This document shows positions 18,451 through 40,743 of a stretch of DNA of 64,000 nucleotides, piece after piece. Within the stretch, counting starts at the first letter, position 1. The number at the start of each line of letters is the position of its first letter. Source of the stretch: Deltaproteobacteria bacterium (lineage in GTDB: Bacteria > Desulfobacterota > Desulfobacteria > Desulfobacterales > SURF-15); NCBI GenBank assembly GCA_019309565.1, contig JAFDFZ010000006.1, positions 42,661-106,660 of the forward strand. The letters run 5' to 3'. The notes below the pieces were generated by a model. It did not search any database. It was not told the DNA's origin and worked only from the letters and a program-made list of their open reading frames with translations. The position numbers were made by a program, and so were the translations under genes.

Positions 18451-18453
18451 CTT

Positions 18454-18518
18454 GACCCGGGCAAGACGGTTGGGGCGATTGGGCTTCGCTATAGGCTACG
18501 ACCCAACAAGGGGTAAAT
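18454..18518 (+). repeat. 66-bp intergenic repeat, copy 2
   Basis: Matches the minus-strand reading of 8432-8497. It occupies the whole gap between the hydro-lyase beta gene stop and the next ATG at 18523, so the repeat supplies any ribosome binding site for that gene (AAGGGG at 18508-18513). Confidence 0.8.
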
Positions 18519-18522
18519 TTCA

Positions 18523-19926: not shown

Positions 19927-20037
19927 CCCGAAATTAAGCTCGACGTGATAAACGAATTTGCACATGGTTCCACGTATGCTTTGTGGATAACCAAATCTTG
20001 TATCAATCCTTAAAAGCGGTAAAGAAAGGAAAGAGCG

Positions 20038-21399: not shown

Positions 21400-21401
21400 T
21401 C

Positions 21402-21515
21402 TAGGCGCTCAAGGGCATCATATTTACAATTTGTTGTCGTTATTGAATAACATGCTGTGTTTGGAGAGAAAAATAGTGAGCTTAAGTTTGAAGTGAGCCC
21501 AATCGGGGCAATTGA
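21402..21515 (+). repeat. Large repeat family B, partial copy B4
   Basis: Shares TTTACAATTTGTTGTCG-like sequence, GAATAACATGCT and AGTTTGAAGTGAG with copies at 36405-36696 and 60717-60975. It stops after GTGAGCCC, where B3 carries the inserted A element, and lacks the distal half. Confidence 0.7.
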
Positions 21516-21567
21516 AAACGTCTCGCTGCAAGACAATCGGTATGAATAACAAAAAAAGGAGGTTAAG

Positions 21568-23196
21568 ATGAAACATTTATTTCGTTTTTGGGTCTTCATT
21601 TTTGCCATGTCGCTTATGATCTTACCCTGCAATGTTTTTTCTGCTTCAAAGCAATTGGCAAAGCAACAGGTATGGCGCTGGGGTCATCACACATCGGATC
21701 TGGATACCCTGGATCCTGCATTTGCAGTTCCGGATATGACCTATTCGGCGGGAAACAGTGTCTTCAACGGCCTTGTACGCCTGAAACCAGGAACACTTGA
21801 CTTTGATCATCTTGAAGGGGATCTTGCAGAATCCTGGGAAATATCCCCCGATGGGCGGGTTTACACTTTTCATCTTCGTCGGGGAGTTAAATGGCACAGG
21901 GGATATGGCGAGTTTACCGCCGAAGACGTTAAGTACACCTTCGATCGGCTGAAAAATCCCAAGCTGGGTACCCCTTACGCAGCAAAGTTTCTGATTATCG
22001 ACGAGGTTAAGGTCATCGACAGGTACACCGTTCAGATCATCCTTAAATCTCCCAGTACCTTTTTCCTCATGGATCAAGCCCTCGCCTATCAGGCAGGCAT
22101 GATAGTGTGTAAGAAACAGGGAGAGGAAAAGGGGATGAAAAATTTGGGGCTTGACGTTATCGGCACCGGTCCATTTATGTTCGAGGACTACAAGGCAAAA
22201 GAAAAAATCACGTTCGTTCGTAACCCGGACTACTTCAGGGGAGCACCCATACTGGAACGACTGGAGATGTATTTCATGCCCAATGTGGCATCCAGAACCA
22301 TGGCCTTTATTAAAGGAGATCTGGATGCTATTTATGGAAAACGGGATTCTTACTGGGTTGATGACGTGAAAAAGACCAAAACGGTTATTGTGGACGCTGT
22401 TCCGCTTGGCAGTGGATGTGCCATTCACTTCAATATGACAAAGAAGCCCCTTGATAACATCAAGGTTAGAAAAGCGCTTGCAATGACCGCAGACCGGCGG
22501 GTGTTTAAGGATTTCTTCGGTGACATCTGGACGGAGATGACCGCGCCGGTTCCTCCATCCTATTACGCTGCCCTGCCGAAGAACATGACCCCCAAAGAAC
22601 TGCTTTATCAGGGAACCGTTGAAGAGGCAAAGAAACTACTGGCCGAAGCCGGCTATGGAAACGGTTTCAAGATTTCGGCCTATATCACAACAAAGCCTTA
22701 TTACAAGGCGATTCTTGAAATCTGTCAGGAGCTATGGAAACCTCTGGGAGTGGAGCTTGAGATCAAGGTTGTTGACCATACCACCTATCATGCCAACATC
22801 CGTAAAGATATGAACCACGTGGTGGTTTACTACGCGGGGCGGGCTCCTGTGGCCGATTCCTACCTGACACAGTGGTACTACTCGAAATCTGCCATCGGTC
22901 AACCCACTCAGGTAACCAACTTTTCCCATTATGGCGAGGTCGATGCCGATGGCGACGGCAAGATCGACAGCGTGGATGATCTAATCGAGGCCGCCAGATC
23001 CGAGCTGGACAGGGAAAAGCAGAAGAAGATGTACTATGAGGCGCAGCTCAAGATCTTGGAAGATGTGCCATCCAAGCCGCTTCATGAGCTGACAAAGGTC
23101 TTTGCCCGACATAACTGGTTCGATCCGGGGGTTGAGATCAAAGGATCGATGATTTTCGGCTACCCCCTGGAAAAGGCGAAAATTTTAAGACACTGA
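21568..23196 (+). CDS. Periplasmic substrate-binding protein, family 5 (DppA/OppA-like), second importer
   Basis: A 542-residue binding protein of the same length as the one at 3218-4846 and clearly paralogous. Signal peptide at residues 1-26 (ending VFSASKQ). Motifs: LDTLDPAF, FNGLVRLKPG, LAESWEISPDGRVYTFHLRR, WHRGYGEFTAEDVKYTFDR, GTGPFMFEDY. Near residue 455 NFSHYGEVDADGDGKIDS carries a DxDxDG calcium-loop-like insert. AAAGGAGG lies just before the ATG. It starts a complete importer set with two permeases and two ATPases. Its position inside the organic acid cluster suggests that cargo may be an organic acid rather than a peptide. Confidence 0.94.
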   Translation: MKHLFRFWVFIFAMSLMILPCNVFSASKQLAKQQVWRWGHHTSDLDTLDPAFAVPDMTYSAGNSVFNGLVRLKPGTLDFDHLEGDLAESWEISPDGRVYTFHLRRGVKWHRGYGEFTAEDVKYTFDRLKNPKLGTPYAAKFLIIDEVKVIDRYTVQIILKSPSTFFLMDQALAYQAGMIVCKKQGEEKGMKNLGLDVIGTGPFMFEDYKAKEKITFVRNPDYFRGAPILERLEMYFMPNVASRTMAFIKGDLDAIYGKRDSYWVDDVKKTKTVIVDAVPLGSGCAIHFNMTKKPLDNIKVRKALAMTADRRVFKDFFGDIWTEMTAPVPPSYYAALPKNMTPKELLYQGTVEEAKKLLAEAGYGNGFKISAYITTKPYYKAILEICQELWKPLGVELEIKVVDHTTYHANIRKDMNHVVVYYAGRAPVADSYLTQWYYSKSAIGQPTQVTNFSHYGEVDADGDGKIDSVDDLIEAARSELDREKQKKMYYEAQLKILEDVPSKPLHELTKVFARHNWFDPGVEIKGSMIFGYPLEKAKILRH

Positions 23197-23197
23197 A

Positions 23198-24139
23198 ATG
23201 ATTAGCTTTATTATCCGAAGGTTTCTGTTAGCGATTCCCACAATCCTGGTGGTGATCACCATCGTCTTTTTCTCGGTGCGAGGTCTTGGGGGGGATCCGG
23301 CTATGGCTATCCTTGGAGACCGGGCGACCCCCCAGGCTCTCGAGGCGATGCGCGAGCGGCTTGGATTAAACCGGCCGTTATGGAAACAGTACACATCTTT
23401 TCTATGGGATCTGATGCACGGAGATCTTGGCCGGGATCTCCGGACCGATCAGCCGGTAGCTGAACTGTTCAGACGTGCGGTTCCCTACACCGTAGACCTT
23501 GCCATCTGGGCAACGGTAATCGGGATTTTGATCGGCGTTCCTGCCGGTATTCTTGCTGCACTTAAATGGAATACTGCTCTGGATTTTCTTGGAAGATTCA
23601 TGGGGATTCTCGGGTTTTCCTTCCCCACTTTCTACTTAAGCATCATTTTGCTGTTTATTTTTTCTTTGAACCTGGGGTGGTTTCCGATGATCGGCGGAGG
23701 GCAGTTAAGCAATCTGGCGGAACGTGCGCATCATCTGTTTTTGCCCGCTTTGAGTCTTGGTTTGATAAAATCCGCCTTTGTTATGAGGCTGACCCGATCC
23801 TCCATGCTCAACGTACTGCATGAAGACTATATCACAACGGCTCGCAGCAAGGGTCTGAAGGAATGGGTGGTCATATACAAACACGCCCTGAGAAACTCCC
23901 TGATCCCTGTGGTGACCATGATCTCTCTTTACCTTGCGGTGACCATTGGAGGGTCGATTGAAGTTGAGATCGTGTTCAACCGGCCGGGGCTGGGCAAGTT
24001 TCTTATCGGTGCCATACAGGAGCGGAACTACCCTGTTATTCAGTCTGGGTTGGTGGTGCTTGCGGTTTTTATCATCATTGTCAATCTGATTACCGATCTG
24101 TCCTATGCGTTCATCGATCCGCGGATCAAATACGACTGA
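23198..24139 (+). CDS. Dpp/Opp-type ABC transporter permease (DppB family), second importer
   Basis: Permease of 313 residues starting one base after the stop of the binding-protein gene. The layout is an N-terminal helix (MISFIIRRFLLAIPTILVVI), GLGGDPAMAILGDRATP, RERLGLNRPLWKQY, then five further helices. The coupling loop is TARSKGLKEWVVIYKHALRN and the end is DLSYAFIDPRIKYD. It aligns along its whole length with the permease at 1948-2889. Confidence 0.94.
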   Translation: MISFIIRRFLLAIPTILVVITIVFFSVRGLGGDPAMAILGDRATPQALEAMRERLGLNRPLWKQYTSFLWDLMHGDLGRDLRTDQPVAELFRRAVPYTVDLAIWATVIGILIGVPAGILAALKWNTALDFLGRFMGILGFSFPTFYLSIILLFIFSLNLGWFPMIGGGQLSNLAERAHHLFLPALSLGLIKSAFVMRLTRSSMLNVLHEDYITTARSKGLKEWVVIYKHALRNSLIPVVTMISLYLAVTIGGSIEVEIVFNRPGLGKFLIGAIQERNYPVIQSGLVVLAVFIIIVNLITDLSYAFIDPRIKYD

Positions 24140-24169
24140 AGAAGGCAGCTGTCGAGGAGGCATTTAGAG

Positions 24170-25003
24170 GTGCAGTTCCAGAGGTTTCTTAAGAATAAAG
24201 TGTCATGCATCGGTCTGATCCTGGTGATTCTGGTTATTTTGGTGGGGATTCTATCTCCCTTGATATCACCCCATGACCCATACAAGCAGCGAATCATCAA
24301 GCGATTTTCAAAACCAAGCCTGCAGTTTCCCGGCGGCACAGACCGGTACGGGCGAGACATTTTCTCAAGAACGCTCTGGGGGGCCAGGGTGTCCTTAAGC
24401 GTGGGGTTTACGGCAACTTTTTTAGGGGCTGTGCTGGGAACCTTTATGGGACTTGTGGCCGGTTATTCCAAAGGCCGAATCAGCAATGCCATCATGTGGC
24501 TTACCGATGTGTTTATGTCTTTTCCCACCATGGTGCTGGCCATCATCGTTGTGGTGGCCTTCGGCCCGGGTATTCGCAACGTGATTCTGGCCATAGCCCT
24601 GGCATTCACCCCTCGGTTTATCCGCCTGGCCCGCGCATCGACCCTTTCAGTATCCGAGCAGGTTTTTATCGAGGCAAGCCGAGCTTCAGGTCAATCCGAT
24701 ATGGGAATCGTTGCTAAACATGTTCTGCCCAATATTGCGGGTGAGATAATTATCATGTCCACGCTTTGGATCGCTACCGCAATTCGATTGGAGGCAAGCT
24801 TAAGTTTTTTGGGCCTGGGAACTCAGCCGCCCATACCGAGCTGGGGAAACATGATTCGTGAAGGAATGCTTTATTTTATGCGGGCTCCATGGCTGTCTCT
24901 GGTTCCTGGCACCGGGATTTTTTTCACCGTAATCGGATTTAATATGCTTGGAGACGGAATGCGGGATGCGTTGGATCCCAAATTAAGGGGTCGGCTGACG
25001 TAA
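24170..25003 (+). CDS. Dpp/Opp-type ABC transporter permease (DppC family), second importer
   Basis: Permease of 277 residues with a GTG start at 24170, supported by GAGGAGG upstream. SPHDPYKQRI and GTDRYGRDIFSRTLWGARVS are DppC signatures, EASRASGQSD and HVLPN mark the ATPase-contact loop, and GDGMRDALDPKLRG the C-terminus. Right after the stop a 250-base repeat (B1) separates it from the ATPase genes, which may lower their expression or mark a former end of the operon. Confidence 0.93.
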   Translation: MQFQRFLKNKVSCIGLILVILVILVGILSPLISPHDPYKQRIIKRFSKPSLQFPGGTDRYGRDIFSRTLWGARVSLSVGFTATFLGAVLGTFMGLVAGYSKGRISNAIMWLTDVFMSFPTMVLAIIVVVAFGPGIRNVILAIALAFTPRFIRLARASTLSVSEQVFIEASRASGQSDMGIVAKHVLPNIAGEIIIMSTLWIATAIRLEASLSFLGLGTQPPIPSWGNMIREGMLYFMRAPWLSLVPGTGIFFTVIGFNMLGDGMRDALDPKLRGRLT

Positions 25004-25008
25004 GTATC

Positions 25009-25258
25009 CTACGCTTTTCCAGAGACTTCGCTCGGAAAAAGTGGCCCCTTCGGGGCAGTTGAAATAAGAACCCAGTTGTAAGTGATCTAAAGTGCCTAAA
25101 GTTAAGGTATCGCTTCGCTCTTTTATTTTAAAAATAGACCAAATTCCTTAACTTTAGTTCACTTTAGTTCACTTTAAACTTTAGTTCACTATAAACGCTT
25201 ATCAAAAGCATGTAATTCAATAACGACAACAAATTGTCGATATGATGTCGTTAAGTTC
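25009..25258 (-). repeat. Large repeat family B, full copy B1 (inverted)
   Basis: Reverse complement of 60717-60975 over nearly its full length, with the same internal dyads: CGACAATTTGTTGTCG-type palindrome, 11-base arms TAAAGTTAAGG and CCTTAACTTTA, and a GGCCCCTTCGGGGC hairpin. It fills the gap between the permease and ATPase genes of the second importer. The rest of the gap to 25313 shows nothing else. Confidence 0.85.
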
Positions 25259-25313
25259 CTATTATTCAAGACCTTAATCACAGAACCCAGAGTGCCATGC
25301 TGGAGAGGGTATT

Positions 25314-26342
25314 GTGGCCAGATTGATTGAAGTGATAAATCTCAAGACGAATTTCTATACGGAAGCGGGAGTGGTTCGCGCGGTCAACGGGGTTGACTTT
25401 GCTATCGAGCGGGAGAAGACCCTGGGCATTGTGGGTGAGAGCGGTTGCGGGAAATCGGTGACCGCTCTTTCGATTATGGGGCTTATTCGGGCGCCAGGTA
25501 AAATTGATGAGGGCCAAATTCTCTTTCATCGAAACGGGCAGATCGTGGATTTGGTAAAGCTCGATCCCAAGGGCCCTGAGATGCGCTCCATCCGGGGAAA
25601 CGAGATCGCCATGATCTTCCAGGAACCCATGACATCCTTAAATCCGGTGTATACCATCGGAAATCAGATCATGGAAGCCATAATGCTGCATCAACGCCTG
25701 GGCAGGGCTGAGGCGCGAGACAAAGCGATTGAAATGCTGCGAGCGGTGGGAATCCCTTCCCCGGAGCAGCGAATCCGGGAATATCCACATCAACTATCCG
25801 GAGGCATGCGACAGAGGGCCATGATCGCCATGGCGCTTTCCTGCAACCCTTCTTTATTGATAGCCGATGAACCCACCACTGCACTGGATGTTACCATACA
25901 GGCACAGGTTCTTAAGCTTATGAACGATTTGCGCCAGGAATTTAACGCAGCGATCATGTTTATTACCCACGACCTGGGGGTTATCGCGCACATGGCCGAC
26001 GATGTTGTGGTGATGTACCTTGGCCGGATTGTGGAGAGCGCAGCGGTCAGAGACATTTTTCATAATCCGATCCATCCCTACACCCAGGGATTGATGAATT
26101 CCATTCCATCGCTGGTGTCAACAAAAGAGAAACGATTGGTTCCCATAAAGGGAGTGGTTCCGGATATTCTGGAATCGGAAGAATGCTGCGGGTTTGAATC
26201 GCGTTGCCCCCATGCCATGGATCTGTGTAAGACACAGTGTCCGCCATTGACCGAAGTGGCTCCCGGCCACCATGCTGCCTGCTGGTTGACCGGGGGGCAA
26301 GTGTCGGTTAATAACAGGACTGATTTTATTCATAGTTCCTAA
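25314..26342 (+). CDS. Dpp/Opp-type ABC transporter ATPase (DppD family)
   Basis: Cytoplasmic ATPase of 342 residues with a GTG start at 25314. Walker A is GESGCGKS, the Q-loop lies in MIFQEPMTSLNP, the ABC signature is LSGGMRQR, Walker B is LLIADEPTTALD and the switch histidine is in FITHDLGVI. The C-terminal oligopeptide extension has ESEECCGFESRCPHAMDLC with cysteines that in some homologues bind an Fe-S cluster. It pairs with DppF downstream and drives the permeases encoded at 23198-25003, perhaps also those at 859-2889. Confidence 0.95.
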   Translation: MARLIEVINLKTNFYTEAGVVRAVNGVDFAIEREKTLGIVGESGCGKSVTALSIMGLIRAPGKIDEGQILFHRNGQIVDLVKLDPKGPEMRSIRGNEIAMIFQEPMTSLNPVYTIGNQIMEAIMLHQRLGRAEARDKAIEMLRAVGIPSPEQRIREYPHQLSGGMRQRAMIAMALSCNPSLLIADEPTTALDVTIQAQVLKLMNDLRQEFNAAIMFITHDLGVIAHMADDVVVMYLGRIVESAAVRDIFHNPIHPYTQGLMNSIPSLVSTKEKRLVPIKGVVPDILESEECCGFESRCPHAMDLCKTQCPPLTEVAPGHHAACWLTGGQVSVNNRTDFIHSS

Positions 26343-26432
26343 AACAAATAATAAATCAGGGAATTTTTCTAACAGATCGCCCTGTGTTTCAACAACGTGG
26401 TTTACCGGGGATTGCTAGTTTGAGGATGTATT

Positions 26433-27497
26433 ATGTCCATGGAAAATGTTTTGCTTGATGTGAAGAATCTCAAGAAGTACTTTCCGGTTCGAAAAGGAAT
26501 TCTTAAAAGGGTAGTGGGACATGTCAAGGCGGTGGACGACATCGATTTCTTCATCAAAGAGGGCGAAACTCTGGGTTTGGTGGGAGAAAGCGGATGTGGT
26601 AAAACCACAACCGGCCGAGCGATTCTTCGTCTAATCGAGCCGACGTGCGGGGAAATCCGATTTCGCAGCAAAAAAATCGCCGGCACCGAAGAGAAGTATC
26701 GGGAAGTTAATATTATAACGGCATCTCCCAAATTACTTAAATCTCTTAGGCAGGACATGCAGATTATTTTTCAAGATCCCTATTCCTCTCTGGATCCAAG
26801 GATGACCGTAGGGGCGATTGTCGGAGAACCCCTTAAGGTCCACGGCATTGCAGCGGGAGGTGATTGGGAGGGCAGGGTGCAGCATCTGCTGAGTGCAGTC
26901 GGTTTGAGCCCTGAACAAATGAAGAGGTATCCTCACCAGTTTTCCGGAGGGCAACGCCAGCGAATCGGTATTGCCCGGGCGCTTGCTACTGATCCGCAGT
27001 TAATTGTGGCGGACGAACCGGTCTCCGCACTGGACGTGTCCATACAGGCGCAGGTATTGAACCTGCTTCAGGATTTACAAGAAGAATACCACCTAACCTA
27101 TCTGTTTATCGCTCATGATCTTTCGGTTGTCAAATATATCAGCGACAGGGTGGCGGTGATGTATCTGGGGAAAATCGTTGAACTGGCTGAAACCAAAGAG
27201 CTTTTTTTAAATCCAAAACATCCCTATACAGAAGCCCTCATGTCCGCAGTCCCCGTTCCGGATCCGGATTACAAGGTTGAGCAGATTCTTCTTGAAGGAG
27301 ATGTTCCCAGCCCGGTTAATCCGCCCTCCGGCTGCTATTTCCATCCCCGGTGCCGCTATGCAGAAGCGATTTGTAAGAACGAACCGCCGGAGTACCGAAA
27401 CTTGGGAAATGAGCATTTTGTTTCCTGCCATTTTGCCGACTCCTTAAGCTTACAGCCGATCCGCACGGGGTTCAGTGAAAGTTCAGATAGGGGTTGA
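26433..27497 (+). CDS. Dpp/Opp-type ABC transporter ATPase (DppF family)
   Basis: Cytoplasmic ATPase of 354 residues. The N-terminus [20 protein letters not shown] is typical for DppF. Walker [11 protein letters not shown]-loop [14 protein letters not shown], signature [15 protein letters not shown], Walker [13 protein letters not shown] and switch [11 protein letters not shown] are intact. The C-terminal [19 protein letters not shown] segment is the oligopeptide-ATPase tail. It lies 90 bases after DppD and 38 bases before the aconitase-like genes, consistent with one long operon. Confidence 0.95.
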
Positions 27498-27535
27498 GGG
27501 CCAGGCGCGGGCCTGGCGGCAGTTGAGGTGTTGAA

Positions 27536-28786
27536 ATGGGCCAAACGTTTGTTGAAAAAATTTTCTCCAAGAAACTTGGCCGTAAAGTAAAGACAGGAGA
27601 CATCGTTGAGGTCACACCGGATGTGGCCATGTCCCATGACAATACAGCGGCGATTATCGGTAAATTTAAAGAATTAGGCGAAGAGAAGGTGCATAATCCG
27701 GACCGGCATGTTATCATTCTGGATCATGCCACCCCCCCGCCCAACGAAACCTATGCAGCCAATCAAAAGATTATTCGTGAATTTGTTGCGGCCCATGGAA
27801 TCAAAAATTTCTTCGATGTAAATACGGGTATCTGCCATCAGGTCTTACCGGAGCAAGGATTTGCACTGCCGGGAAAAATAATTGTCGGAAGTGATTCTCA
27901 TACCACCACTTACGGGGCGTTTGGGGCCTTTAGCACCGGCATCGGAAGAAGCGAAATGGCCGTCATATTCGCCACCGGAAAAATATGGTTCCGGATACCG
28001 GAGAGCATGAAAATTACCGTAAACGGAACCTTGCAACAGGGGATTACGGCCAAAGATATGATGCTTCATATCATCGGGGATCTTAGCGCCGACGGAGCAT
28101 TATACAGATCTGTGGAATTTTATGGAGAGGTGATTTCCGGCCTTTCCATTGGTTCTCGAATGACTGTTGCCAACATGGTTGTGGAAATGGGAGCCAAGAA
28201 CGGGTTTTTGCAACCTGACAGGAAGCTGTTTATTTGGCTAAATAATCGGGCGCGTGGCGATTACGAAGTGATCATGGCGGATAAAGACGCCTGTTATGAA
28301 AAAACGGTTTCTTACGATGTCAGTGATCTGGAGCCACAGATTGCCTGCCCGCATTCCGTGGACAATATAAAGAGGGTTTCCGAAATTACCGGCACTAAGA
28401 TAAACCAGGCGTTTCTGGGGAGCTGTGCCAATGGTCGATTGGAAGATCTGAAAGTTGCCGCCTCCCTGATAAAGGGGAAAAGAGTTCACCCTGCGGTCCG
28501 GTTTCTTGTTTTTCCTGCTTCCATGAATATATATCGAGAAACGATGACAAAGGGATATCTGGATGTGCTGTCCAATGCCGGTGCCATCATCATGAACCCT
28601 GGCTGCGGGCCATGCCTTGGAGCGCATAGCGGTGTGCTTGCTGCCGGCGAGGTATGTATCAGTTCCTCAAATCGCAATTTCAAGGGCAGAATGGGCAGCC
28701 AGGATGCCGCCGTTTACCTTGGGAGCCCGGCCAGCGTGACAGCGTCGGCCATTGCCGGGGAGATCGTGGATTTTCGCAAGTTATGA
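27536..28786 (+). CDS. Aconitase/isopropylmalate dehydratase-type large subunit (first pair)
   Basis: A 416-residue Fe-S hydro-lyase of the LeuC/homoaconitase branch. DHATPPPNE, GSDSHTTTYGAFGAFSTGIG and DGALYRSVEF are typical. The three 4Fe-4S ligands are expected in GSCANGRLEDL and PGCGPCLGAH; SSNRNFKGRMGS binds substrate. With its small subunit it isomerises 2- and 3-hydroxy acids by dehydration and rehydration. The context (MmgE/PrpD, CitE, LarA-like) favours a catabolic di- or tricarboxylate rather than leucine synthesis; no leuA or leuB lies here. Paralogue at 53948-55219. Confidence 0.9.
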   Translation: MGQTFVEKIFSKKLGRKVKTGDIVEVTPDVAMSHDNTAAIIGKFKELGEEKVHNPDRHVIILDHATPPPNETYAANQKIIREFVAAHGIKNFFDVNTGICHQVLPEQGFALPGKIIVGSDSHTTTYGAFGAFSTGIGRSEMAVIFATGKIWFRIPESMKITVNGTLQQGITAKDMMLHIIGDLSADGALYRSVEFYGEVISGLSIGSRMTVANMVVEMGAKNGFLQPDRKLFIWLNNRARGDYEVIMADKDACYEKTVSYDVSDLEPQIACPHSVDNIKRVSEITGTKINQAFLGSCANGRLEDLKVAASLIKGKRVHPAVRFLVFPASMNIYRETMTKGYLDVLSNAGAIIMNPGCGPCLGAHSGVLAAGEVCISSSNRNFKGRMGSQDAAVYLGSPASVTASAIAGEIVDFRKL

Positions 28787-28832
28787 ATAAACATCAAGAG
28801 ACAACGACTTCAAAGATTCGGGAGGTCCTTAA

Positions 28833-29324
28833 ATGATAATTCGGGGACGTGTTTGGAAATATGGGGATGACATCAGTACCGATGTTATCTTTCCGGGAAA
28901 ATATACATACACCATCCATGATCCCCTGGAAATGGCCGCCCATTCCCTGGAGGGGCTTGATCCTGATTTTGCCGAAAAGGTACAAAAAGGAGATGTACTT
29001 GTTGGAGGAAAGAATTTTGGATGCGGCAGTTCGCGGGAACAGGCTGCCACCTGTTTGAAATTTTCAGGGATCGGTGCTGTTGTCGCCAAATCCTTTGGGC
29101 GAATCTTCTTCCGAAATGCCATCAATAACGGACTGCCCCTGGTTCAGTGTGCTCAAGCCGTTGATGTGATTGAAAACGGGGAAACCGTGTGTATCGATAT
29201 CGAAAAAGGCGAGCTGGAATGCAGCGGGGGCAAATTTACTTTTACACCGCTTCCCGGATTTATGCTGGAAATACTGGCTGACGGAGGATTAATCCCGCAT
29301 ACGAAAAAAAAGATAGGAAGATAA
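28833..29324 (+). CDS. Aconitase/isopropylmalate dehydratase-type small subunit (first pair)
   Basis: A 163-residue swivelling-domain subunit. The N-terminal WKYGDDISTDVIFPGKYTY and the substrate-loop motif GGKNFGCGSSREQAA are diagnostic, followed by AKSFGRIFFRNAINNGLPL. GGGAGG precedes the ATG. It is encoded 46 bases after the large subunit and must form the active isomerase with it. Confidence 0.93.
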   Translation: MIIRGRVWKYGDDISTDVIFPGKYTYTIHDPLEMAAHSLEGLDPDFAEKVQKGDVLVGGKNFGCGSSREQAATCLKFSGIGAVVAKSFGRIFFRNAINNGLPLVQCAQAVDVIENGETVCIDIEKGELECSGGKFTFTPLPGFMLEILADGGLIPHTKKKIGR

Positions 29325-29396
29325 GCGCTTGCATTGGCGGCTTGCGGTTATATGATGCTGCGGGGTTATGAGCTATTTTCAAAAGGAGAAACCAAT

Positions 29397-30245
29397 ATGA
29401 ATACAATGGAACTGATGAAGGGTGCGATAGATATTCATATTCACATTGGACCGGATCCAAACAGGCCTCGACGTGTAAACGGATATGAAGCAGCCGTCCA
29501 GGCAAAAGAGGTGGGCATGCGAGGGGTGGTTTTTAAAAGCCACGATTACAACACCACCCCCCTGGCCTATACGGTTCAAAAACTGGTTTCGGGCATAGAG
29601 CTTTACGGCGGGGTTTGTTTGGATGTAGAGGTGGGAGGACTGAACCCTGCAGCTGTGGAAGCAGCCGGCAAACTCGGATCGAAAATAATCTGGATGCCAA
29701 CGTTTTCATCCAAAAACGACATGGAAAAAAAGAACCTTCCCGGACAGGGGATTACAATACTGGATCAAAACGGACAGATTCTGCCCGTGGTTCGAGAAAT
29801 ACTTGAGCTGATCAAACATTATGGCATGACGCTTGCCACCGGGCATCTGTCAACACGGGAAATTTTTGAATTGTTGAAATGCACCGACAGTGTGGGGCTT
29901 GAGCGGGTGGTCATTACACATCCTCTTTCCATTGGCGTCGGTCCGACCGCTTCCATCGAAGAACAGCGACAGATGATGCGAAAAGGCGTTTTTTTTGAAC
30001 ATTGCTTTACCGCCACCATGCCGAACAGCGATCGACTCGACCCCGGAAAGATTGCCGAAGCAGTCCGTGCCATCGGGGCCGAACACTGCATTTTGTCGAC
30101 TGATTTCGGACAGATTTTTAATCCACCACCCGCCGAAGGGATGCGGATGTATATAGAAACCATGCGCCGGTTTGAAATCACGGATGATGAGATCATACTG
30201 ATGATTCGAACAAATCCCGCAAAGGCTCTTGGGCTGCCGGTTTGA
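29397..30245 (+). CDS. DUF6282-type amidohydrolase-like protein
   Basis: The start at 29397 is set by AAAAGGAG nine bases upstream, giving 282 residues. The N-terminus AIDIHIHIGPDPNRP has the metal-binding HxH of amidohydrolase-fold enzymes; VVFKSHDYNTT, WMPTFSSKND, ATGHLS and VITHPLS could supply further ligands and ILSTDFGQ the final aspartate. No substrate is established for this family. A second, damaged copy is at 63157-64000. It sits between the aconitase-like pair and the LarA-type gene, so hydrolysis of a lactone or cyclic acid is conceivable but unproven. Confidence 0.75.
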   Translation: MNTMELMKGAIDIHIHIGPDPNRPRRVNGYEAAVQAKEVGMRGVVFKSHDYNTTPLAYTVQKLVSGIELYGGVCLDVEVGGLNPAAVEAAGKLGSKIIWMPTFSSKNDMEKKNLPGQGITILDQNGQILPVVREILELIKHYGMTLATGHLSTREIFELLKCTDSVGLERVVITHPLSIGVGPTASIEEQRQMMRKGVFFEHCFTATMPNSDRLDPGKIAEAVRAIGAEHCILSTDFGQIFNPPPAEGMRMYIETMRRFEITDDEIILMIRTNPAKALGLPV

Positions 30246-30335: not shown

Positions 30336-31631
30336 ATGGGTCATGCTTACCACACGGAGCAAATCCCGTATGGAACAGGTGAATTAACTCTGAAGGTACC
30401 GGAGAAAAATTACATCGGGACACTGATTCCCTCTTACTGTCCGGCAGTGGCGGATGAACGCGCAGAGATCGTTGAAGCCATAGACAACCCAATCGGAACC
30501 CCGCCACTTGAGGAAATTGTACGGCAAAAACACGGGAAAAAAACCGTTGTCGTGGTAAATGACGGCACAAGACCCACCGCTACCTATAAACTACTTCCGC
30601 CGCTTTTGGAAAAACTCGAAAGATGCGGCATATCTGAAGGTGACATCCTAATTCTCATAGCAACAGGCACACACAGGGCCGTTGGACCCGATGAGATTGA
30701 ACCTCTTCTGGGAAAAGGAATCACCAACCGCTATCGGATCGTCAACCATGATTGCCTTGATTTGAAAAATATGGTGGATCTTGGCACCACCTCACAGGGC
30801 ATTCCAATTGTAATAAATCGCTTGTTTTGTGAGGCAGATATCAAGATATTGACGGGATCCATTCACCCCCACCAGGGTGCGGGTTTTTCTGGAGGAAGAA
30901 AAAGCATCCTGCCCGGATTGACAAGCCTTGAAACCTTGAAGCTGCATCATGGCCCCAGATATCGACCGCTTGAACCCGCTATGGGGCAGTTGGATGGAAA
31001 TCCATTTCATCTCGGGGCTCTTGAAGGCGCCAAAATGGCTGCGCCAGATTTTATCCTGAATCTGGTTCAGAACCAGAAAAAGGAGATCACCCGCGCTGTA
31101 GCGGGTGACCTTGAGCAGGCCTGGATGAAGGGAGTCGAAGCGAGCAGGGAGATCTTTGAAGCCCGGACCCCCCACGATGTCGATATCGTGATCGTTGTGC
31201 CTGGCGGGCATCCCAGGGATGTCAATCTCTATCAGAGCCAGAAATCCATGGCCGCTGCCGAGCTTGTGGTCAAACGCGGGGGGAGCATCATCCTGCCGGC
31301 GGCCTGTCCGGACGGTATCGGCTCGGAGCTTTTTTTTAAATGGCTGGCATCGGCCGGCTCTCCCGAGGATGTTATGCAGCGGTTCCAGGCAGAGGGATAT
31401 GATGTGGGAACGTCCAAGGCATGGCTTTATGCCAGGTGCCTGCTTAAAGCCGAGATGATAATCGTGTCCGAATTTCTGGAACAGTCCGTGTTAGAACAGA
31501 TGTTTACAAAGAAGGCTGCAGACATGGACACGGCGCTCAAAATGGCGTTTGAAAGCCAGGGTCAGGATGCCAGGGTATTGATCATGCGAAACGCCGCAGA
31601 CATGATTCCGGTAAGGGAAGACGGGGGTTAA
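30336..31631 (+). CDS. larA: LarA family nickel-pincer-dependent racemase/epimerase
   Basis: A 431-residue LarA-type enzyme. Lactate racemase of Lactiplantibacillus plantarum uses H108, H174, K184 (covalent cofactor anchor) and H200; here H113 (GTHRAVG), H179 (SIHPHQG), K189 (GGRKSILPG) and H205 (LHHGP) keep exactly the same spacing, so it should bind the nickel-pincer cofactor. The DGTRP loop is also present. LarA homologues racemise or epimerise 2-hydroxy acids including malate and others; the substrate here is open. GGGAAGGAG precedes the ATG. LarB for the cofactor is at 5686-6435. The next gene is a selenoprotein six bases downstream. Confidence 0.93.
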   Translation: MGHAYHTEQIPYGTGELTLKVPEKNYIGTLIPSYCPAVADERAEIVEAIDNPIGTPPLEEIVRQKHGKKTVVVVNDGTRPTATYKLLPPLLEKLERCGISEGDILILIATGTHRAVGPDEIEPLLGKGITNRYRIVNHDCLDLKNMVDLGTTSQGIPIVINRLFCEADIKILTGSIHPHQGAGFSGGRKSILPGLTSLETLKLHHGPRYRPLEPAMGQLDGNPFHLGALEGAKMAAPDFILNLVQNQKKEITRAVAGDLEQAWMKGVEASREIFEARTPHDVDIVIVVPGGHPRDVNLYQSQKSMAAAELVVKRGGSIILPAACPDGIGSELFFKWLASAGSPEDVMQRFQAEGYDVGTSKAWLYARCLLKAEMIIVSEFLEQSVLEQMFTKKAADMDTALKMAFESQGQDARVLIMRNAADMIPVREDGG

Positions 31632-31636: not shown

Positions 31637-32308
31637 ATGGTTCAATATTTGTACAATCCCAAAGGCGTATTTCACCGGGAAGAACGCTCGATCGCCCCGA
31701 GACTGGATTCCCTGAACGACAAAGTTCTTGGGCTTGTGGACAACGGAAAGGTCAATGCGGATCGCTTCCTCCAGGCCATTCAGCACTTGCTTGAGCAGAG
31801 GTTTAGGATTCGAAAAGTTCTTAAGGTCAGAAAAGCCAGGGTCGGTACTCCGGCCCTGTTTACGCCCGAGTTTGTGGAACAATGTGATTTCGCTGTCAAT
31901 GCATTCGGTGATTGAGGCTCCTGCACGTCATGGAGTATCCATGATTCGATCGAGTTGGAAAAACAGGCGATCCCCGTAGCAACGATATGTACGGAGGAGT
32001 TTTTTATGCTGGGTAAAGCCGAGGCAGAATGTCTCGGCTTTCCGGGCTTGCCCATTGCGGTGATTCCACATCCCATGGCAGACAAGACCCCCGAACAGGT
32101 CAAGGAGATCGCCGCGCGTGTTTTTCCGGAAATCGTACGCATTCTCTGTACCGAGTCGAATAAACTTAAAGAGGAATTCAGACAGAAGAGCATCGAAACA
32201 AGAAGAAAATCGACCTTAAGGTATAAATCGTTATTTGGAGACGAATCGAATATAGCCTTAAAGAGTCCGAAGATAACATTAAAGCACCGGATTCCCTTGA
32301 AGCCGTGA
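31637..32308 (+). CDS. UGSC-family selenoprotein (in-frame TGA decoded as selenocysteine)
   Basis: The frame from ATG 31637 reads 92 codons, meets TGA at 31913-31915, and continues open for 130 codons to TGA at 32306-32308. Around the TGA it reads NAFGD-U-GSCTSWSIHDSIE, the diagnostic UGSC (Sec-Gly-Ser-Cys) redox-type motif of the UGSC family, and the downstream part (ATICTEEFFMLGKAEAE, VIPHPMADKTPEQV) is clearly the same protein. A hairpin fitting the bacterial SECIS model follows (31928-31944). With Sec at position 93 the product is 223 residues. The biochemical role of UGSC proteins is not established; Sec-x-x-Cys suggests thiol/selenol redox chemistry. It lies six bases after the LarA-type gene and overlaps the next gene by four bases. 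Confidence 0.88.
31928..31944 (+). promoter_or_regulatory. Candidate bacterial SECIS element
   Basis: TCATGGA and TCCATGA form a perfect 7-bp stem closing a GTA loop. The loop G at 31935 is 20 bases after the end of the TGA, inside the 16-37 base range known for bacterial SECIS, and a G at the first loop positions is the recognised requirement for SelB binding. It lies within the coding sequence, as bacterial SECIS elements do. Confidence 0.7.
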
Positions 32309-33342
32309 ACAACCTTTTTTATCATCGAGGCTGGACGGATGGATTGCCGATAATTCCTCCTGCAAAAGATCGAGTGAACCGGATGGTGGAACATTGCGGG
32401 TTCGATGAAAACACCCTGATTGGTAATCTGCCTCCCGCAGGCGGGGCGGCTACCGTAAAGAAGATTGCGATAAATGCGGTCATGGCGGGATGTATGCCCG
32501 AGCACATGCCCGTTCTTATTGCTGCTGTAAAGGCGATGGTGCAGGAGAAGTTTAACCTCTATGCGATTCAAACAACCACCCATCCAGCTGCCGTTCTCAC
32601 TCTTATCAACGGTCCTTTGGGTCGGGAGCTGGATTTTAATTGCAGATACAATGCAATGGGGCAGGGCAGTCTTGGCAACGCAACCATCGGCAGAGCGATC
32701 AGGCTCATCCTGGTAAATATCGGGGGGGCATCGCCCGGGGTTCTCGATCGGTCAACCCAGGGAAGTCCTGCAAAGTATTCCTATTGTTTTTCTGAAAATG
32801 AAGAAGAAAACCCCTGGGAGCCTTTTCATGTGGAAAGAGGATTTTCCAGCACGACAAGTACGGTTACGGTTATGGGGGCTGAAGGACCGCACAATGTAAA
32901 TGATCACGGGGGCGAAAATGCAGAAGAAATCCTGCTGACAGTTGCCGGTGTTCTTGCAAGCCCTGGAATCAACAACGTCTATTTGAGCGGAGAACCATTG
33001 ATACTGCTTGGGCCCGAACATGCGGCCATCATAGCTAGGGATGGCTTCTCAAAGAAGGAGATAAAACAATTCCTTTTCGAAAAAGCAAAAGTGCCGTTAA
33101 CCTGGATATCCGAAGGGAATTTGAAATGGTTTAAGCGGCATAATCCGAACCGATTTTCTGGTTTGAGTACGGATGCCGCCGTGCCGATCGTCGACAGCCC
33201 GGATGAGATCATTGTGGTGGTCGCAGGGGGAATGGGAAGACATTCGGCGGTAATCCCCACTTTTGGTGGTCATGCCGGGTCGGTTACAGTTGCGATAGTG
33301 GACCAAAATGGCCAGCCAATATTGCCGGCAGCTCATGATTAA
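32305..33342 (+). CDS. Unidentified conserved-looking protein paired with the UGSC selenoprotein
   Basis: A 345-residue soluble protein starting at GTG 32305, overlapping the selenoprotein stop by four bases, so translation is coupled. No known domain is recognised. Conserved-looking segments are RGWTDGLPIIPPAKDRV at the N-terminus, LPPAGGAATVKKIAINAVMAGCMPEHM, a glycine/asparagine-rich NAMGQGSLGNATIGRAIRL, and VVAGGMGRHSAVIPTFGGHA at the C-terminus. Cysteines are at about residues 33, 64, 110 and 154. Tight coupling implies that it works with the UGSC protein, possibly as a redox partner or as the second subunit of one enzyme. No signal peptide or membrane segment is seen. Confidence 0.8.
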   Translation: MNNLFYHRGWTDGLPIIPPAKDRVNRMVEHCGFDENTLIGNLPPAGGAATVKKIAINAVMAGCMPEHMPVLIAAVKAMVQEKFNLYAIQTTTHPAAVLTLINGPLGRELDFNCRYNAMGQGSLGNATIGRAIRLILVNIGGASPGVLDRSTQGSPAKYSYCFSENEEENPWEPFHVERGFSSTTSTVTVMGAEGPHNVNDHGGENAEEILLTVAGVLASPGINNVYLSGEPLILLGPEHAAIIARDGFSKKEIKQFLFEKAKVPLTWISEGNLKWFKRHNPNRFSGLSTDAAVPIVDSPDEIIVVVAGGMGRHSAVIPTFGGHAGSVTVAIVDQNGQPILPAAHD

Positions 33343-33368: not shown

Positions 33369-35009
33369 GTGCAAAAACTACCGAAAGTTGAAATCACAAC
33401 CGATGTGCTTGTAATAGGCGGAGGCGCTGCCGGGTTGATGGCGGCGCTTGAGGCAAAACGCGCAGGGCTGGATGTAACCATCGTGTCAAAGAGCAAGGTA
33501 GGAAAAAGCGGAAATACCATAGTTTCCGGTACCGGAATGGCCATGTTGCTTCCTGATCCGCATACTGAGGATTCCGCTGAAATTTTCAGAAATGACACCC
33601 TTGCATCAGGAAAACAGGTAAACGATAGGAAGCTGGTGGATCAATTCGTCACCGGCACCACAAAACTGGTTGATCGTCTGACTCAATACGGAGTGGCTTT
33701 CAAAAGACTTGATGGGAAATTAATGAAAAAACGAGCCCCCGGACATTCTGTGGCACGATCCTTAACATCGGATTTCAGCAAATTGCCTTTTCTCACCCGG
33801 GGGCTTTCTCTTGCCCTGCCGCTGTTGAATTCCGCCCAGAAGGCGGGGATTAGAATTATCGATTTTTCATCGGTAATCAAACTGCTGTGTGCGGAAGGCC
33901 GTATGTGCGGTGCTGTGGCCATCCAGAAGAAAACACAAACTCTTGTAGTTTTTCATGCAGGCGCCGTGATTCTGGCCTCCGGAGGTGGCGGAAGCGTGTA
34001 TTCCCGATCCAATAACACCTGGGATGTTACAGGCGACTCGTACGGTCTTGCATTTGAGGCGGGAGCAACACTTCGGGACATGGAGTTCGTTCAGTTTTAT
34101 CCGACAATGATGTTTTCTCCCATTAAGGTCACAATTTCAAGCCCGCTTTTTGGGGAGGGAGCATTTTTAAGAAATGCCGATGACGAGCGTTTCATGGAAA
34201 GATACGATCCGGCTGCAGACATGGCCACCCGCGATATCATGACCCGTGCCATATTCAGCGAAGTGATGGCGGGTCGAGGCCGTAAAGGCTGTGTCTATAT
34301 GGATTGCAGGCATCTGGATAAGAGGGTTTTGGATACCAAGTTTGCAGAGCTAGTCAAACTGCTTAAGAAGGTGAATATAGATCCGTCAAGGGATCTGATT
34401 CCCATCTCTCCTGCCACCCATTTTTTCATGGGGGGCCTTGCGGTCAACAAAGAGTGTGAAACCACGGTTTCAGGACTTTTTGCCTGCGGAGAATCTGTCG
34501 GTGGACTTCACGGGGCAAACCGCTTAAGCGGCAATGCATTGTCTGAGACATTTGTGTTCGGAACAATTGCCGGAAGATGTGCTGCGCAAAGACATCCACT
34601 TCGGTTAAAACCGCCCTTGCCCGCATTCGAGGTTTTTCCGTTACAACAGGGTGACATCTCTTTGGTAGAATTAAAAAAGAGCCTCAAGAAAACGGCCTGG
34701 AAATGTCTATCTATCGTAAGAAATCAACAATTCGGCGAAAAGGCGTGCGATGAGTTGCGGCAAATATCCGATTCCTTGAAACACACAAGAGTTAATTCGA
34801 TACACGAACTTGTAAGCCTCTATGAACTTAATCACATGATAACCACAGCTGAAATGATCATCCGCGGGGCGCTTTCAAGAAAAGAAAGCAGAGGCGCCCA
34901 TTTCCGCTCGGATTACCCTGAACCGAACGATTCAAAATTCAAGGGCAATTTCTTTTATCGAAACAGAAAAGGAGAAATAGAATTGGAGTTTCGACCGGTA
35001 GGGGATTGA
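33369..35009 (+). CDS. FAD-dependent oxidoreductase, fumarate reductase/succinate dehydrogenase flavoprotein family
   Basis: A 546-residue flavoprotein with GTG start. The dinucleotide-binding motif VLVIGGGAAGLMAALEAKRAG is at residues 13-33; VILASGGGGSVYSRS, EFVQFYPTM, a catalytic-arginine region with HFFMGGLAVN and the C-terminal FAD motif GLFACGESVGGLHGANRLSG follow. The helical end (after residue 460) resembles L-aspartate oxidase and SdhA. It likely reduces or oxidises a dicarboxylate, but no dedicated Fe-S or membrane subunit follows directly; those encoded at 47259 and 48816 could serve. It is 26 bases downstream of the UGSC partner gene, so it may share the operon. Confidence 0.9.
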   Translation: MQKLPKVEITTDVLVIGGGAAGLMAALEAKRAGLDVTIVSKSKVGKSGNTIVSGTGMAMLLPDPHTEDSAEIFRNDTLASGKQVNDRKLVDQFVTGTTKLVDRLTQYGVAFKRLDGKLMKKRAPGHSVARSLTSDFSKLPFLTRGLSLALPLLNSAQKAGIRIIDFSSVIKLLCAEGRMCGAVAIQKKTQTLVVFHAGAVILASGGGGSVYSRSNNTWDVTGDSYGLAFEAGATLRDMEFVQFYPTMMFSPIKVTISSPLFGEGAFLRNADDERFMERYDPAADMATRDIMTRAIFSEVMAGRGRKGCVYMDCRHLDKRVLDTKFAELVKLLKKVNIDPSRDLIPISPATHFFMGGLAVNKECETTVSGLFACGESVGGLHGANRLSGNALSETFVFGTIAGRCAAQRHPLRLKPPLPAFEVFPLQQGDISLVELKKSLKKTAWKCLSIVRNQQFGEKACDELRQISDSLKHTRVNSIHELVSLYELNHMITTAEMIIRGALSRKESRGAHFRSDYPEPNDSKFKGNFFYRNRKGEIELEFRPVGD

Positions 35010-38196: not shown

Positions 38197-40008
38197 TTAA
38201 TGGATGAGTTTGAATATCAAAGAAACGCTTAAGTAACAGCCAGCCGCTGTTAGAAATACTTGGGTGAACCCAAAATCAATTGCAATGATAACCGTTAGTG
38301 CTGAGCCCATCACAGAGCTAATACCGTTAATCCCCCACATCAAAGGGATGAGATAATCAATTAAACGCTCTTTTAAAAACCTTATTGCCAGAGGAAAGGG
38401 GAATCCCATAGCAAACCCCAACGGGATCACTAACCCAACTGTAATTAATACCCGGTAAGCTAAATCCAGCCCTAAAAAATAACTAAAAATAGACTTTAAA
38501 GCAAAGGTGTACAGTAGAAGTAATATTGCAGTCACAAAGGCGGCAGTCGTAATTGTTTTAACAGACCTATCAGTGGCGACAGATTTGCTCCAAAAGCTTC
38601 CCATGCCTGCTCCACCCAAAATCGAAAACAACAAAACGGTCATAGACAATACAGGTCGCCCCAGAAAGAGCACAAATTTTTGTATTAAGGATATTTCAAC
38701 CATCATAAATCCCATCCCCAGCATCAAAAATATTACAACATGTAAAATAGGGTTTGTTGCCTTATCCGTTTTATTTGAATACTTCCTTATTCTATAGCGG
38801 TTATTTTGTAATAATGACGACCACACTGTAATTATAACCAGGATTGAGACAATGGAGAATACGAAAACACGGGAGACAGGTTTTGGAATGCCGTTTTCAA
38901 ATTTGTAGAAAAATGGACTGTTATCTGATACCGGGCTGATATCATGGCCCAATTTTTCAACCTCGTTTAGCACTTCATCAAAGATACGAAGGCCTCTTCC
39001 AAGAGACATCAGGGCCGGATTGAGCGTACCCCATCGTTGAATAAAAGGAAAGTATGATGATAATGGGTCATAACCGAATTTGAACATAGCGCGGTATCTT
39101 GGAAATATTTCTTCCTGTAAAAATGGTGTTTTTTTTAACACGAAGACCGGATAAAGCCTTGAGCCAACCAGATACATATGCTTCATTGCTCTTGTTGAGT
39201 CCAAGCCCCTTTTACCGAGAGTGGCTAGAGAGATGGAAAGCAGTCTTAGCATGGATAGGTCGCCATGCCCTACTATCACCAAACGTCCATTTTCGGTCAG
39301 ATGGTTTAAATAATCATTAATGGAATCGGTGGTGAGTAGATAATTTTCTGTTAATGCATAACCTTCGCGGCTTCGACTGGTGTTGGTAACCGGCAGACTT
39401 AACATGATGATATCAAAATTCTCCTTCTGGCGTCTAAGAAAATTCCTACCCTCATCAACAATGATATTTACATTGCCGAATCCATTGTAAATATGGCCGT
39501 TGTACCAGGAATAGTCACGAACCATTTCCACAAGGTCTTTATTGACCTCAACAGCAGTAATTTTTTTAACTCCTCCCATGGCTGCCAAAAGAATGTCTCT
39601 TCCGCCACCGGGGCCGATGATAAGAGCCGAATCTTTTTCACCGTCTTTTAAAAACATAAAGGGAAAATATCCTGGAAATTCAATCTTTAACCTGTTTACC
39701 ACTGAATCTGGATTGCTTAAATCCCCGTTGAATTTGAACATTGGAGTTCCAGCGGTTCCATCAACATAGATATCCATATATTCAGGGCTGTTGTCATACC
39801 GCACTAAATCTGTTTGACCAAAGGCACTCCATCGCGTTTCGATAATTTTTCCCTGTTGAGGACCGTATAAAGCATGGTGAATTTCCTTTTCAGGATTCTT
39901 TCCTATGGCAGGTTTCGGTCTATACAAACCGGAGAGGTTTAGGCAAAACAAGGTGGAAGAAATCAGTAAACTGACAATACTTAATATCTTCACACAATTT
40001 ATCCTCAT
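38197..40008 (-). CDS. Polytopic spermidine-synthase-like methyltransferase-fold protein, main part
   Basis: A 603-residue membrane protein. After one N-terminal helix (residues 7-25) comes a soluble Rossmann domain resembling aminopropyltransferases and methyltransferases (SALIIGPGGGRDILLAAMGG, ITAVEVNKDLVEM, NVNIIVDEGRNFL), then about seven membrane helices from residue 375 to the end. Full-length relatives begin with six more helices; those are encoded separately at 40105-40743. AAAAGG precedes the ATG. The function of these fused proteins is not established; polyamine synthesis is doubtful. Sequence in this part of the window is more AT-rich than the catabolic clusters around it. Confidence 0.8.
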   Translation of the reverse strand: MRINCVKILSIVSLLISSTLFCLNLSGLYRPKPAIGKNPEKEIHHALYGPQQGKIIETRWSAFGQTDLVRYDNSPEYMDIYVDGTAGTPMFKFNGDLSNPDSVVNRLKIEFPGYFPFMFLKDGEKDSALIIGPGGGRDILLAAMGGVKKITAVEVNKDLVEMVRDYSWYNGHIYNGFGNVNIIVDEGRNFLRRQKENFDIIMLSLPVTNTSRSREGYALTENYLLTTDSINDYLNHLTENGRLVIVGHGDLSMLRLLSISLATLGKRGLDSTRAMKHMYLVGSRLYPVFVLKKTPFLQEEIFPRYRAMFKFGYDPLSSYFPFIQRWGTLNPALMSLGRGLRIFDEVLNEVEKLGHDISPVSDNSPFFYKFENGIPKPVSRVFVFSIVSILVIITVWSSLLQNNRYRIRKYSNKTDKATNPILHVVIFLMLGMGFMMVEISLIQKFVLFLGRPVLSMTVLLFSILGGAGMGSFWSKSVATDRSVKTITTAAFVTAILLLLYTFALKSIFSYFLGLDLAYRVLITVGLVIPLGFAMGFPFPLAIRFLKERLIDYLIPLMWGINGISSVMGSALTVIIAIDFGFTQVFLTAAGCYLSVSLIFKLIH

Positions 40009-40104: not shown

Positions 40105-40743
40105 TTAAGCAGTATTTCGGTTAAAAGAAAATAAAACGCTTGATATGGATGTCACCCCAGCAAAGAAGAAAATTGCGCAAACAGGACTGAAAATGTTCAA
40201 GGCAAGAACAACCCCAAGGCAAGCCGAGGCCGCACCAATCAAGTCTGAACCATAGATCATAGAACCTAATGCAGGAAAGGAGCTAAAAACCTTTGCCAGA
40301 AACATGCCTCCAAAAACAAACGGGAAAATAAAGATGACCCAATATAAAAAGATGTTGGTGCCCACAGTCTCTAAATGACCAACCTGGATGGCGACCAAAG
40401 GCGACAAAGTCATCGCTAAGGAACAAAAGCCGGAAAACAAAGATAGAGAATGAAATAACTGGGCTTTATCCGGTGTCTTCTTCTGAGAGAAATGAATAAA
40501 AATACCACCAATCCCTATTCCAAACAAAGATAATGAAACCACGGCAAACACATAATGATAAGACAATATCACAGACAATAAACGCGCCAATGCGATCTCG
40601 AAAGCCAGCAAGCTGAACGATACAAGGAAAACACCGACTAATAATGTTGATAATCGGCTCTGGGTGATGTGATGTTCCATTCTAACCATCATTTTTGACT
40701 TCATTTGGAATGATTTAAGCACAACGTCATTTGGGCACAACAA
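40105..40743 (-). CDS. N-terminal membrane part of the spermidine-synthase-like protein, split off
   Basis: A 212-residue protein with about six membrane helices starting near STLLVGVFLVSFSLLAFEIA; the FEIALARLLSVILSYHYVF stretch is the typical first-helix motif of membrane-embedded spermidine-synthase-like proteins. It ends at TAA just after SFNRNTA. The rest of the fused protein starts 96 bases downstream in another frame. This is either a natural gene split or a frameshifted gene. The start could be residue 22 (MEHHITQSR) instead of 1. Confidence 0.7.
   Translation of the reverse strand: MLCPNDVVLKSFQMKSKMMVRMEHHITQSRLSTLLVGVFLVSFSLLAFEIALARLLSVILSYHYVFAVVSLSLFGIGIGGIFIHFSQKKTPDKAQLFHSLSLFSGFCSLAMTLSPLVAIQVGHLETVGTNIFLYWVIFIFPFVFGGMFLAKVFSSFPALGSMIYGSDLIGAASACLGVVLALNIFSPVCAIFFFAGVTSISSVLFSFNRNTA

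Follow-up and report, generated by a model that had tools for sequence, protein, structure and literature searches.

The UGSC gene, its in-frame TGA and the downstream hairpin

The DNA analyzed here is a stretch of 64,000 nucleotides, referred to as the window, from a Deltaproteobacteria bacterium of the phylum Desulfobacterota (assembly GCA_019309565.1, contig JAFDFZ010000006.1, positions 42,661 to 106,660). It carries a gene of the UGSC selenoprotein family, in which a TGA triplet predicted to encode selenocysteine (Sec) lies in frame, followed by a hairpin resembling a selenocysteine insertion sequence (SECIS). An earlier interpretation, made from the letters of the window without database searches (the sequence-only reading), had described the selenoprotein and its SECIS, and our data support both. 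The larger finding is that UGSC looks, by sequence comparison, like one half of a near-constant two-part enzyme, whose Sec domain appears to be related to that of GrdB. The elements of the gene are given below in window coordinates.

31637..32308, + strand: UGSC-family selenoprotein frame, stop included, over the cut-offs of PF24696 and NF041046
31913..31915, + strand: TGA, predicted Sec, residue 93, in frame at the U of GD-U-GSC
31922..31924, + strand: TGC, Cys96, second residue of the U-x-x-C pair, Cys in 95 of 96 aligned UGSC domains
31927..31945, + strand: SECIS-like hairpin of seven Watson-Crick pairs and a G-U closing pair, loop GUA (from fold, pairing register and compensatory wobble pairs)

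The frame begins with ATG at 31637 and closes with a TGA at 32306-32308. The internal TGA, which is read directly at the U of the motif F-G-D-U-G-S-C-T-S-W, is followed by 130 sense codons. The read-through product attained 165.7 bits with the Pfam model UGSC PF24696 (cut-off 25) and 135.2 bits with NCBIfam NF041046 (cut-off 125). At residue 93, the position named beforehand as the one on which the prediction depended, Sec or Cys was found in 94 of the 96 aligned UGSC domains; Cys96 probably acts as the resolving residue. An open frame beyond a TGA is weak evidence when taken alone, since a scan of the window for at least 80 codons, a TGA and then at least 120 open codons disclosed five cases including the UGSC gene, and it is the family match that carries the point. 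The observation of a UGSC gene with an in-frame TGA predicted to be decoded as Sec is thus confirmed, and the gene is an ordinary new member of the known UGSC family.

The Sec machinery, whose presence the sequence-only reading had proposed to verify, is complete in the host draft genome (5.47 Mb, 97% complete, 7.9% contamination). It comprises selA (627.3 bits), selB (392.7 bits, cut-off 242), selD (349.9 bits), which has an in-frame TGA of its own in RSCGUAAKIG, and a tRNA-Sec with the anticodon TCA scoring over the Rfam cut-off. There are three UGSC genes in this genome, and each has a single TGA, located at the motif, which reads UGSC, UGSC and UGTC, respectively. The third of them (G000:C276:2374-2907; loci L032 and L177), which has UGTC for UGSC, is accompanied by a stub of the partner domain described below, and a homologue of the tricarboxylate transporter protein TctA is located in the same stretch. 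Besides SelD and the three UGSC proteins, the genome encodes a candidate PrdB-like selenoprotein with the sequence TPAUGLCNQ (L134; G000:C132:51861-52238).

A survey of the phylum, in which at most eight candidates were scored per genome, yielded 86 UGSC matches in 38 of 395 genomes. According to a count of the table by eye, 78 matches contained one stop, a TGA, seven contained none and one contained three. From these 86 matches we drew 40 loci in a non-random manner, as a rule the best of each genome, to which the other two UGSC copies of the host were added. Another 46 loci were found by a search for the Cys motif and are therefore Cys-type by design; eight of the 54 pattern matches were unconfirmed as relatives.

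The stem of the hairpin, TCATGGA/TCCATGA with the loop GTA, spans 31928-31944. The 7-bp stem and the GUA loop had been described correctly, while the distance of 20 bases from the TGA given for them is about that of the loop (19 bases), the stem already starting after 12 bases. Taken alone, the hairpin of the window was not significant (z -0.74), as 43 of 200 shuffled sequences folded equally well or better. Since it is no better than shuffled sequences, support for a SECIS comes from the family and not from the single sequence. We compared 45 Sec-type with 48 Cys-type genes from the fetched loci, corresponding to 44 and 47 tails after removal of identical ones; the statistics ignore kinship between the sequences. 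Mean energy z values against synonymous-codon shuffles were -1.33 for the Sec-type and -0.29 for the Cys-type genes (Mann-Whitney p 7e-8). At least seven of the eight pairs of the window register could form in 30 of the 44 Sec tails versus three of the 47 Cys tails. The loop was GTN in 28 of these 30 Sec tails, and the remaining 14 Sec tails fell outside the register.

The pair at offsets 17-29 from the TGA links two third-codon positions and is G-C in 25 and A-T in five of the 30 register-fitting tails; as these were chosen by pairing, their 30 out of 30 is biased, and the permutation figures are based on all 44. The downstream codon of this pair encodes His in 25 of the 30 tails, 20 with G-C and five with A-T. 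His is thus kept while the pair switches, so that both sides change together and the residue remains the same. Among the 44 Sec tails, pair 17-29 was Watson-Crick in 36 (synonymous-permutation mean 27.2, maximum 35) and the wobble-wobble pair 20-26 in 40 (mean 28.0, maximum 38), values reached by none of 3000 permutations. The outermost pair 14-32 was Watson-Crick in 22 (mean 14.8, maximum 22). For the 47 Cys tails the corresponding numbers were 12, 24 and 9, no excess, the permutation means being 19.3 and 22.0 for the first two pairs. Hence the stem covaries in Sec-type but not in Cys-type relatives, which bears out the proposed SECIS, even though the energy test on the window alone does not.

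The partner domain and its separation from UGSC

Close to the end of the UGSC frame a second open frame sets in, which we call the partner.

32227..33342, + strand: partner domain or gene; its open frame may start at ATT 32278, the start of P0014, or at GTG 32305
32246..32250, + strand: point at which the UGSC and partner frames diverge, a frameshift or a natural split, with a length change relative to fused relatives

Profile searches with Pfam and NCBIfam revealed no family for the frame 32227-33342, and 7978 of 7999 scored candidates matched it. A partner was present together with UGSC in 82 of the 86 fetched loci (44 of 46 Cys-type, 38 of 40 from the phylum), located downstream, upstream or fused. 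The partner profile search detected none in the fetched stretches of L061, L062, L155 and L172. L061 and L062 are two Microbacterium loci (strains BR1 and SDZm4) with a Cys-type UGSC. In L177 the partner is reduced to the stub mentioned above, and in L151 it is cut into two pieces.

The nearest relatives of the partner start within the UGSC domain and continue directly into the partner, forming one protein. Such a fusion is also encoded by the second UGSC gene of the host genome (L031) and by L103-L105, and the nearest aligned relatives, P0015, P0016 and P0018, which are 71-73% identical, are fused as well. In the window, homology of the UGSC frame to the fused relatives extends from 31637 to approximately 32245, whereas its last approximately 20 residues are read in a different frame from theirs. 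The point of divergence was located by a protein alignment with P0015, P0016, P0018, P0022, P0023 and P0025 and by a DNA alignment with L143 and L147; no slippery heptamer was found within 32200-32306. The GTG at 32305 overlaps the UGSC stop (GTGA). Of the suggestion that the partner is a translationally coupled gene, the overlap of GTG and stop is real, but the nearest relatives have the partner as a second domain fused to UGSC. The database cluster of the split partner (representative P0014, starting with ATT 32278) includes a contig of 170 kb, which is longer than the 107-kb contig of the host. Another assembly of the same or a close strain may therefore carry the split too, and the split may be real.

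The first description of a UGSC-containing protein in 2008 reports, in the text available to us, a fusion with a domain termed 'Unknown_1' (PMC2398784), presumably the partner. With the UGSC family as known from PF24696, NF041046 and that text (PMC2398784) our gene shares the cut-offs, the Sec/Cys site, the occurrence of Sec and Cys forms and the fusion to a second domain. Its UGSC half is no different; the window copy is set apart by having the two domains in different frames.

Likely relation to GrdB and the predicted fold

Inspection by eye revealed a likeness between UGSC (U-G-S-C-T ... E-L-E-K-Q-A-I-P-V-A-T-I-C-T ... I-P-H-P-M) and GrdB (U-G-T-C-T ... E-I-E-K-A-G-I-P-T-V-H-I-C-T ... I-P-H-P-L). 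About 100 residues can be aligned motif on motif, at U-G-[ST]-C-T, at E-[IL]-E...[GA]-I-P and at an H-P-[LM] turn. Alignment of UGSC with four GrdB sequences of the same phylum by hhalign gave 96.3-96.8%, and approximately 90% when the motif was masked in both. As controls, 200 column shuffles did not exceed 1.5%, and the reversed sequence gave 9.9%. With 53 further GrdB sequences 96.9-97.2% were obtained, while 60 shuffles stayed at or below 2.7% and the reversed control reached 4.4%. This set goes back to 120 listed homologues, 81 of which were long enough and 53 of which contained the anchor motif. The database stretches of 44 of the 53 have Trp at the Sec position before GTCTRC, apparently because gene callers read the TGA as Trp.

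Evidence independent of our own GrdB alignments came from NCBIfam. Up to an E value of 5, TIGR01917 was matched by 22 of 48 UGSC members, TIGR04483 (PrdB) by 18, NF040794 by 13 and TIGR01918 by 11. Models of glycine, sarcosine and proline reductases were thus the commonest matches after those of UGSC itself, with a best E value of 1.3e-4 and 0.0018 for the window. The matches to the D-proline reductase protein PrdB are weak. From PrdB and from the short PrdB-like selenoproteins that occur in the phylum, UGSC differs in its N-terminal part; one set of seven PrdB-like sequences gave 90-93% by hhalign.

GrdB contains the motif UxxCxxC, as stated in the accessible text of a 2026 review (PMC13188914). 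The full U-x-x-C-x-x-C is kept in 14 of 45 Sec-type UGSC genes, whereas UGSCTSW of the window has Trp99 for the third Cys. A counterpart of the N-terminal half of GrdB was not found in UGSC either (3.5%). Since family cut-off, third Cys and N-terminal half all fail, we call UGSC GrdB-like and not GrdB; to judge from the alignments, the Sec domains of the two are likely to be distantly related. GrdB-related proteins outside amino-acid reduction have been proposed for a fluoroacetate-cleaving operon of Cloacibacillus, which we set beside UGSC by its description, the abstract mentioning neither UGSC nor the partner (PMC10838667). The fluoroacetate cleavage attributed to GrdB-related proteins suggests that the class may serve other carboxylate substrates (PMC10838667).

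An AlphaFold2 model of UGSC (predicted local distance difference test score 87.6) places residue 93 after the strand 85-91 and just before the helix 94-109. By this prediction UGSC folds as an alpha/beta domain in which residue 93 lies at the N-terminus of a helix. The listed structural matches of the model were mostly receiver, flavodoxin-like and Rossmann-like chains, and the modeled domain is not obviously thioredoxin-like. A search for a solved structure of the Sec domain of GrdB or PrdB yielded none.

Gene neighbourhood and proposed role

As controls for the neighbourhood we used 40 stretches from 17 of the genomes, which were matched to the loci of the phylum only and not to the Cys-type loci. 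A thioredoxin reductase (TrxB)-like gene was present in 13 of all 86 UGSC loci and in none of these phylum-matched controls, in 11 of the 13 cases on the UGSC strand. Four of the seven TrxB-like genes checked passed the cut-off, and in the Cys-type locus L074 of Microbacterium aoyamense a TrxB-TrxA fusion directly follows UGSC and partner. The nearest annotated genes of the window are the following.

29334..30245, + strand: DUF6282 protein (PF19799, 212.4 bits)
30336..31631, + strand: LarA-type racemase homologue (Lar_N 210.8, LarA_C 108.8 bits), not conserved with UGSC
33369..35009, + strand: FAD-binding fumarate-reductase-like flavoprotein (PF00890, 263.1 bits), beside UGSC in 2 of 40 loci of the phylum and 0 of 46 Cys-type loci

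Among the window neighbours other than the partner, it is DUF6282 that turns up again next to UGSC both in the phylum of the window and in haloarchaea. It was found in three of the 40 loci of the phylum, in four of the 46 Cys-type loci and in none of the 40 controls; these seven loci comprise all four from haloarchaea. The LarA-type gene upstream of UGSC had been recognized correctly, as the Lar_N and LarA_C matches demonstrate; its best NCBIfam model, LarAH6, was matched with 449.8 bits, under the cut-off of 500. The surroundings also contain PrpF, a LeuC/LeuD-type aconitase, a peptide-type ABC transporter, two MmgE/PrpD proteins, CoA-transferase III, HpcH/HpaI and GntR. Most of these belong to a long run of genes on the same strand at 14964-29324 (GntR, HpcH/HpaI aldolase, CoA-transferase III, two MmgE/PrpD, ABC transporter, LeuC/LeuD-type aconitase), which suggests polycarboxylate catabolism. 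None of the tested neighbours was significantly enriched beside UGSC in the phylum set relative to the 40 controls. LarA (0 of 40 and 0 of 46), LeuC, LeuD and PrpF did not recur. The operon, which had been put forward as a route to the function of UGSC, is thus a weaker guide than hoped, LarA and most neighbours not being conserved. On the minus strand, the long frames 38200-40008 and 40108-40743 matched no Pfam family at E 0.001; a DctM-type transporter gene, also on that strand, lies next to them.

We lean towards the view that UGSC and the product of the next frame form one two-part, thioredoxin-driven reductase, whose Sec domain is likely to be distantly related to that of glycine and D-proline reductase. 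In such an enzyme Sec93 would be the nucleophile attacking the substrate, and Cys96 would resolve it with formation of a selenenyl-sulfide. The couple of thioredoxin and thioredoxin reductase would then return this bond to the reduced state. The substrate pocket would come from the partner, which would stand in for GrdE and for the N-terminal half of GrdB. The enzyme might reductively cleave a carbon-heteroatom bond adjacent to a carboxylate. This is the weakest step, assumed because of the analogy with glycine and proline reduction (PMC13188914) and with fluoroacetate cleavage (PMC10838667), as described in the accessible parts of these sources. A wider and more tentative proposal is that UGSC and its partner could constitute a further class of GrdB-type selenoenzymes that, operating without GrdA and GrdE and powered by the thioredoxin system, would reductively cleave a carbon-heteroatom bond of carboxylate nutrients. 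It would be spread as the Sec form in the phylum and as the Cys form in haloarchaea, actinobacteria and proteobacteria.

Several results weigh against a GrdB-like reductase. The GrdB matches in NCBIfam are weak, the window scoring 17.3 bits with TIGR01917 at a cut-off of 602.2, and Pfam GRDB (PF07355) was matched by none of the 48 UGSC members up to E 5. A strict set of seven PrdB-like sequences with UPxCTR gave 4.6-5.6% by hhalign, and a sequence search of solved structures gave no credible match to UGSC. The partner resembled neither GrdE (0.16%, one GrdE sequence) nor the N-terminal half of GrdB (0.09%). GRDA (PF04723) was not matched in the host genome, in a search that matched in no control genome either. 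Of the TrxB-like genes, three of the seven checked were below the cut-off and two of the 13 lay on the strand opposite to UGSC; in the matched set alone the difference, 3 of 40 versus 0 of 40, was not significant (p 0.24), and the annotated window neighbours included no TrxB. selB over the cut-off was detected in 32 of the 38 UGSC genomes versus 350 of 395 overall, and being common throughout the phylum its co-occurrence with UGSC is uninformative. Five genomes with TGA-type UGSC (G009, G033, G093, G113 and G198) had no selB over the cut-off. Among them, G198 is rated 100% complete and has eight scored UGSC matches with one TGA each. In G092, the sixth UGSC genome without a selB over the cut-off, the sole UGSC match is a Cys form. 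Furthermore, the partner frame is shifted in the window, and this copy may be damaged.

Decay of the window copy, in which the UGSC half may still be made but, severed from the partner by the frameshift, would not work here, appears quite unlikely to us. It would agree with the fused state of the nearest aligned relatives, with the second, fused copy L031 in the host genome and with the parting of the frames near 32246-32250 at a site lacking a slippery heptamer. On the other hand, each frame is open apart from this, relatives commonly have the two as separate genes, the split perhaps exists in another assembly and the GTG overlaps the stop. Far less probable still, to the point of being hardly credible, is that translation truly ends at the TGA and that the frame behind it encodes a protein with a start of its own. 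A TTG at 31955, within 40 bases of the TGA, could serve as this start, but the motif, the Cys at the same site in relatives, the covariation of the hairpin and the full set of Sec genes speak against this.

Other functions of an intact protein have to be considered too. The available text of PMC2398784 offers a thioredoxin-like fold as a guess for UGSC. Accordingly, UGSC could be a thiol oxidoreductase of this fold, resembling peroxiredoxins or disulfide reductases, with a likeness to GrdB confined to the U-G-x-C loop. U-x-x-C is a common redox motif; given the fold matches of the model and the alignments obtained with the motif masked, we hold this to be improbable. Somewhat less improbable, though still unlikely, is a selenocysteine enzyme made of UGSC and partner that acts as a lyase, an isomerase or a selenium/sulfur transferase in polycarboxylate breakdown. 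This would fit the abundance of polycarboxylate enzymes in the window operon (LeuC/LeuD-type aconitase, two MmgE/PrpD, PrpF, HpcH/HpaI, CoA-transferase III). It would also fit the AcnX gene found within approximately 4.4 kb of UGSC in eight Microbacterium- or Agromyces-type loci, the Pfam identity of which was tested in one of them, L046. Moreover, the best, albeit weak, fold matches of the partner were fumarate hydratases (Foldseek E 7e-4, template modeling score 0.24). The TrxB-TrxA fusion in L074 and the remote link to GrdB favor the two-part reductase.

What is new is the proposed class assignment together with the near-constant pair of UGSC and partner. As far as the texts were available, our literature searches disclosed no statement of a GrdB-like class or of the pair, apart from the 'Unknown_1' fusion of 2008 (PMC2398784). 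The near-constant partner, the TrxB-TrxA operon of L074 and the remote GrdB link turn a protein described as 'unknown, probably thioredoxin-like' into the subject of a concrete assay for a two-component, thioredoxin-coupled reductase, whose Cys form an ordinary E. coli host could produce. In this way the UGSC selenoprotein family would gain its first testable role.
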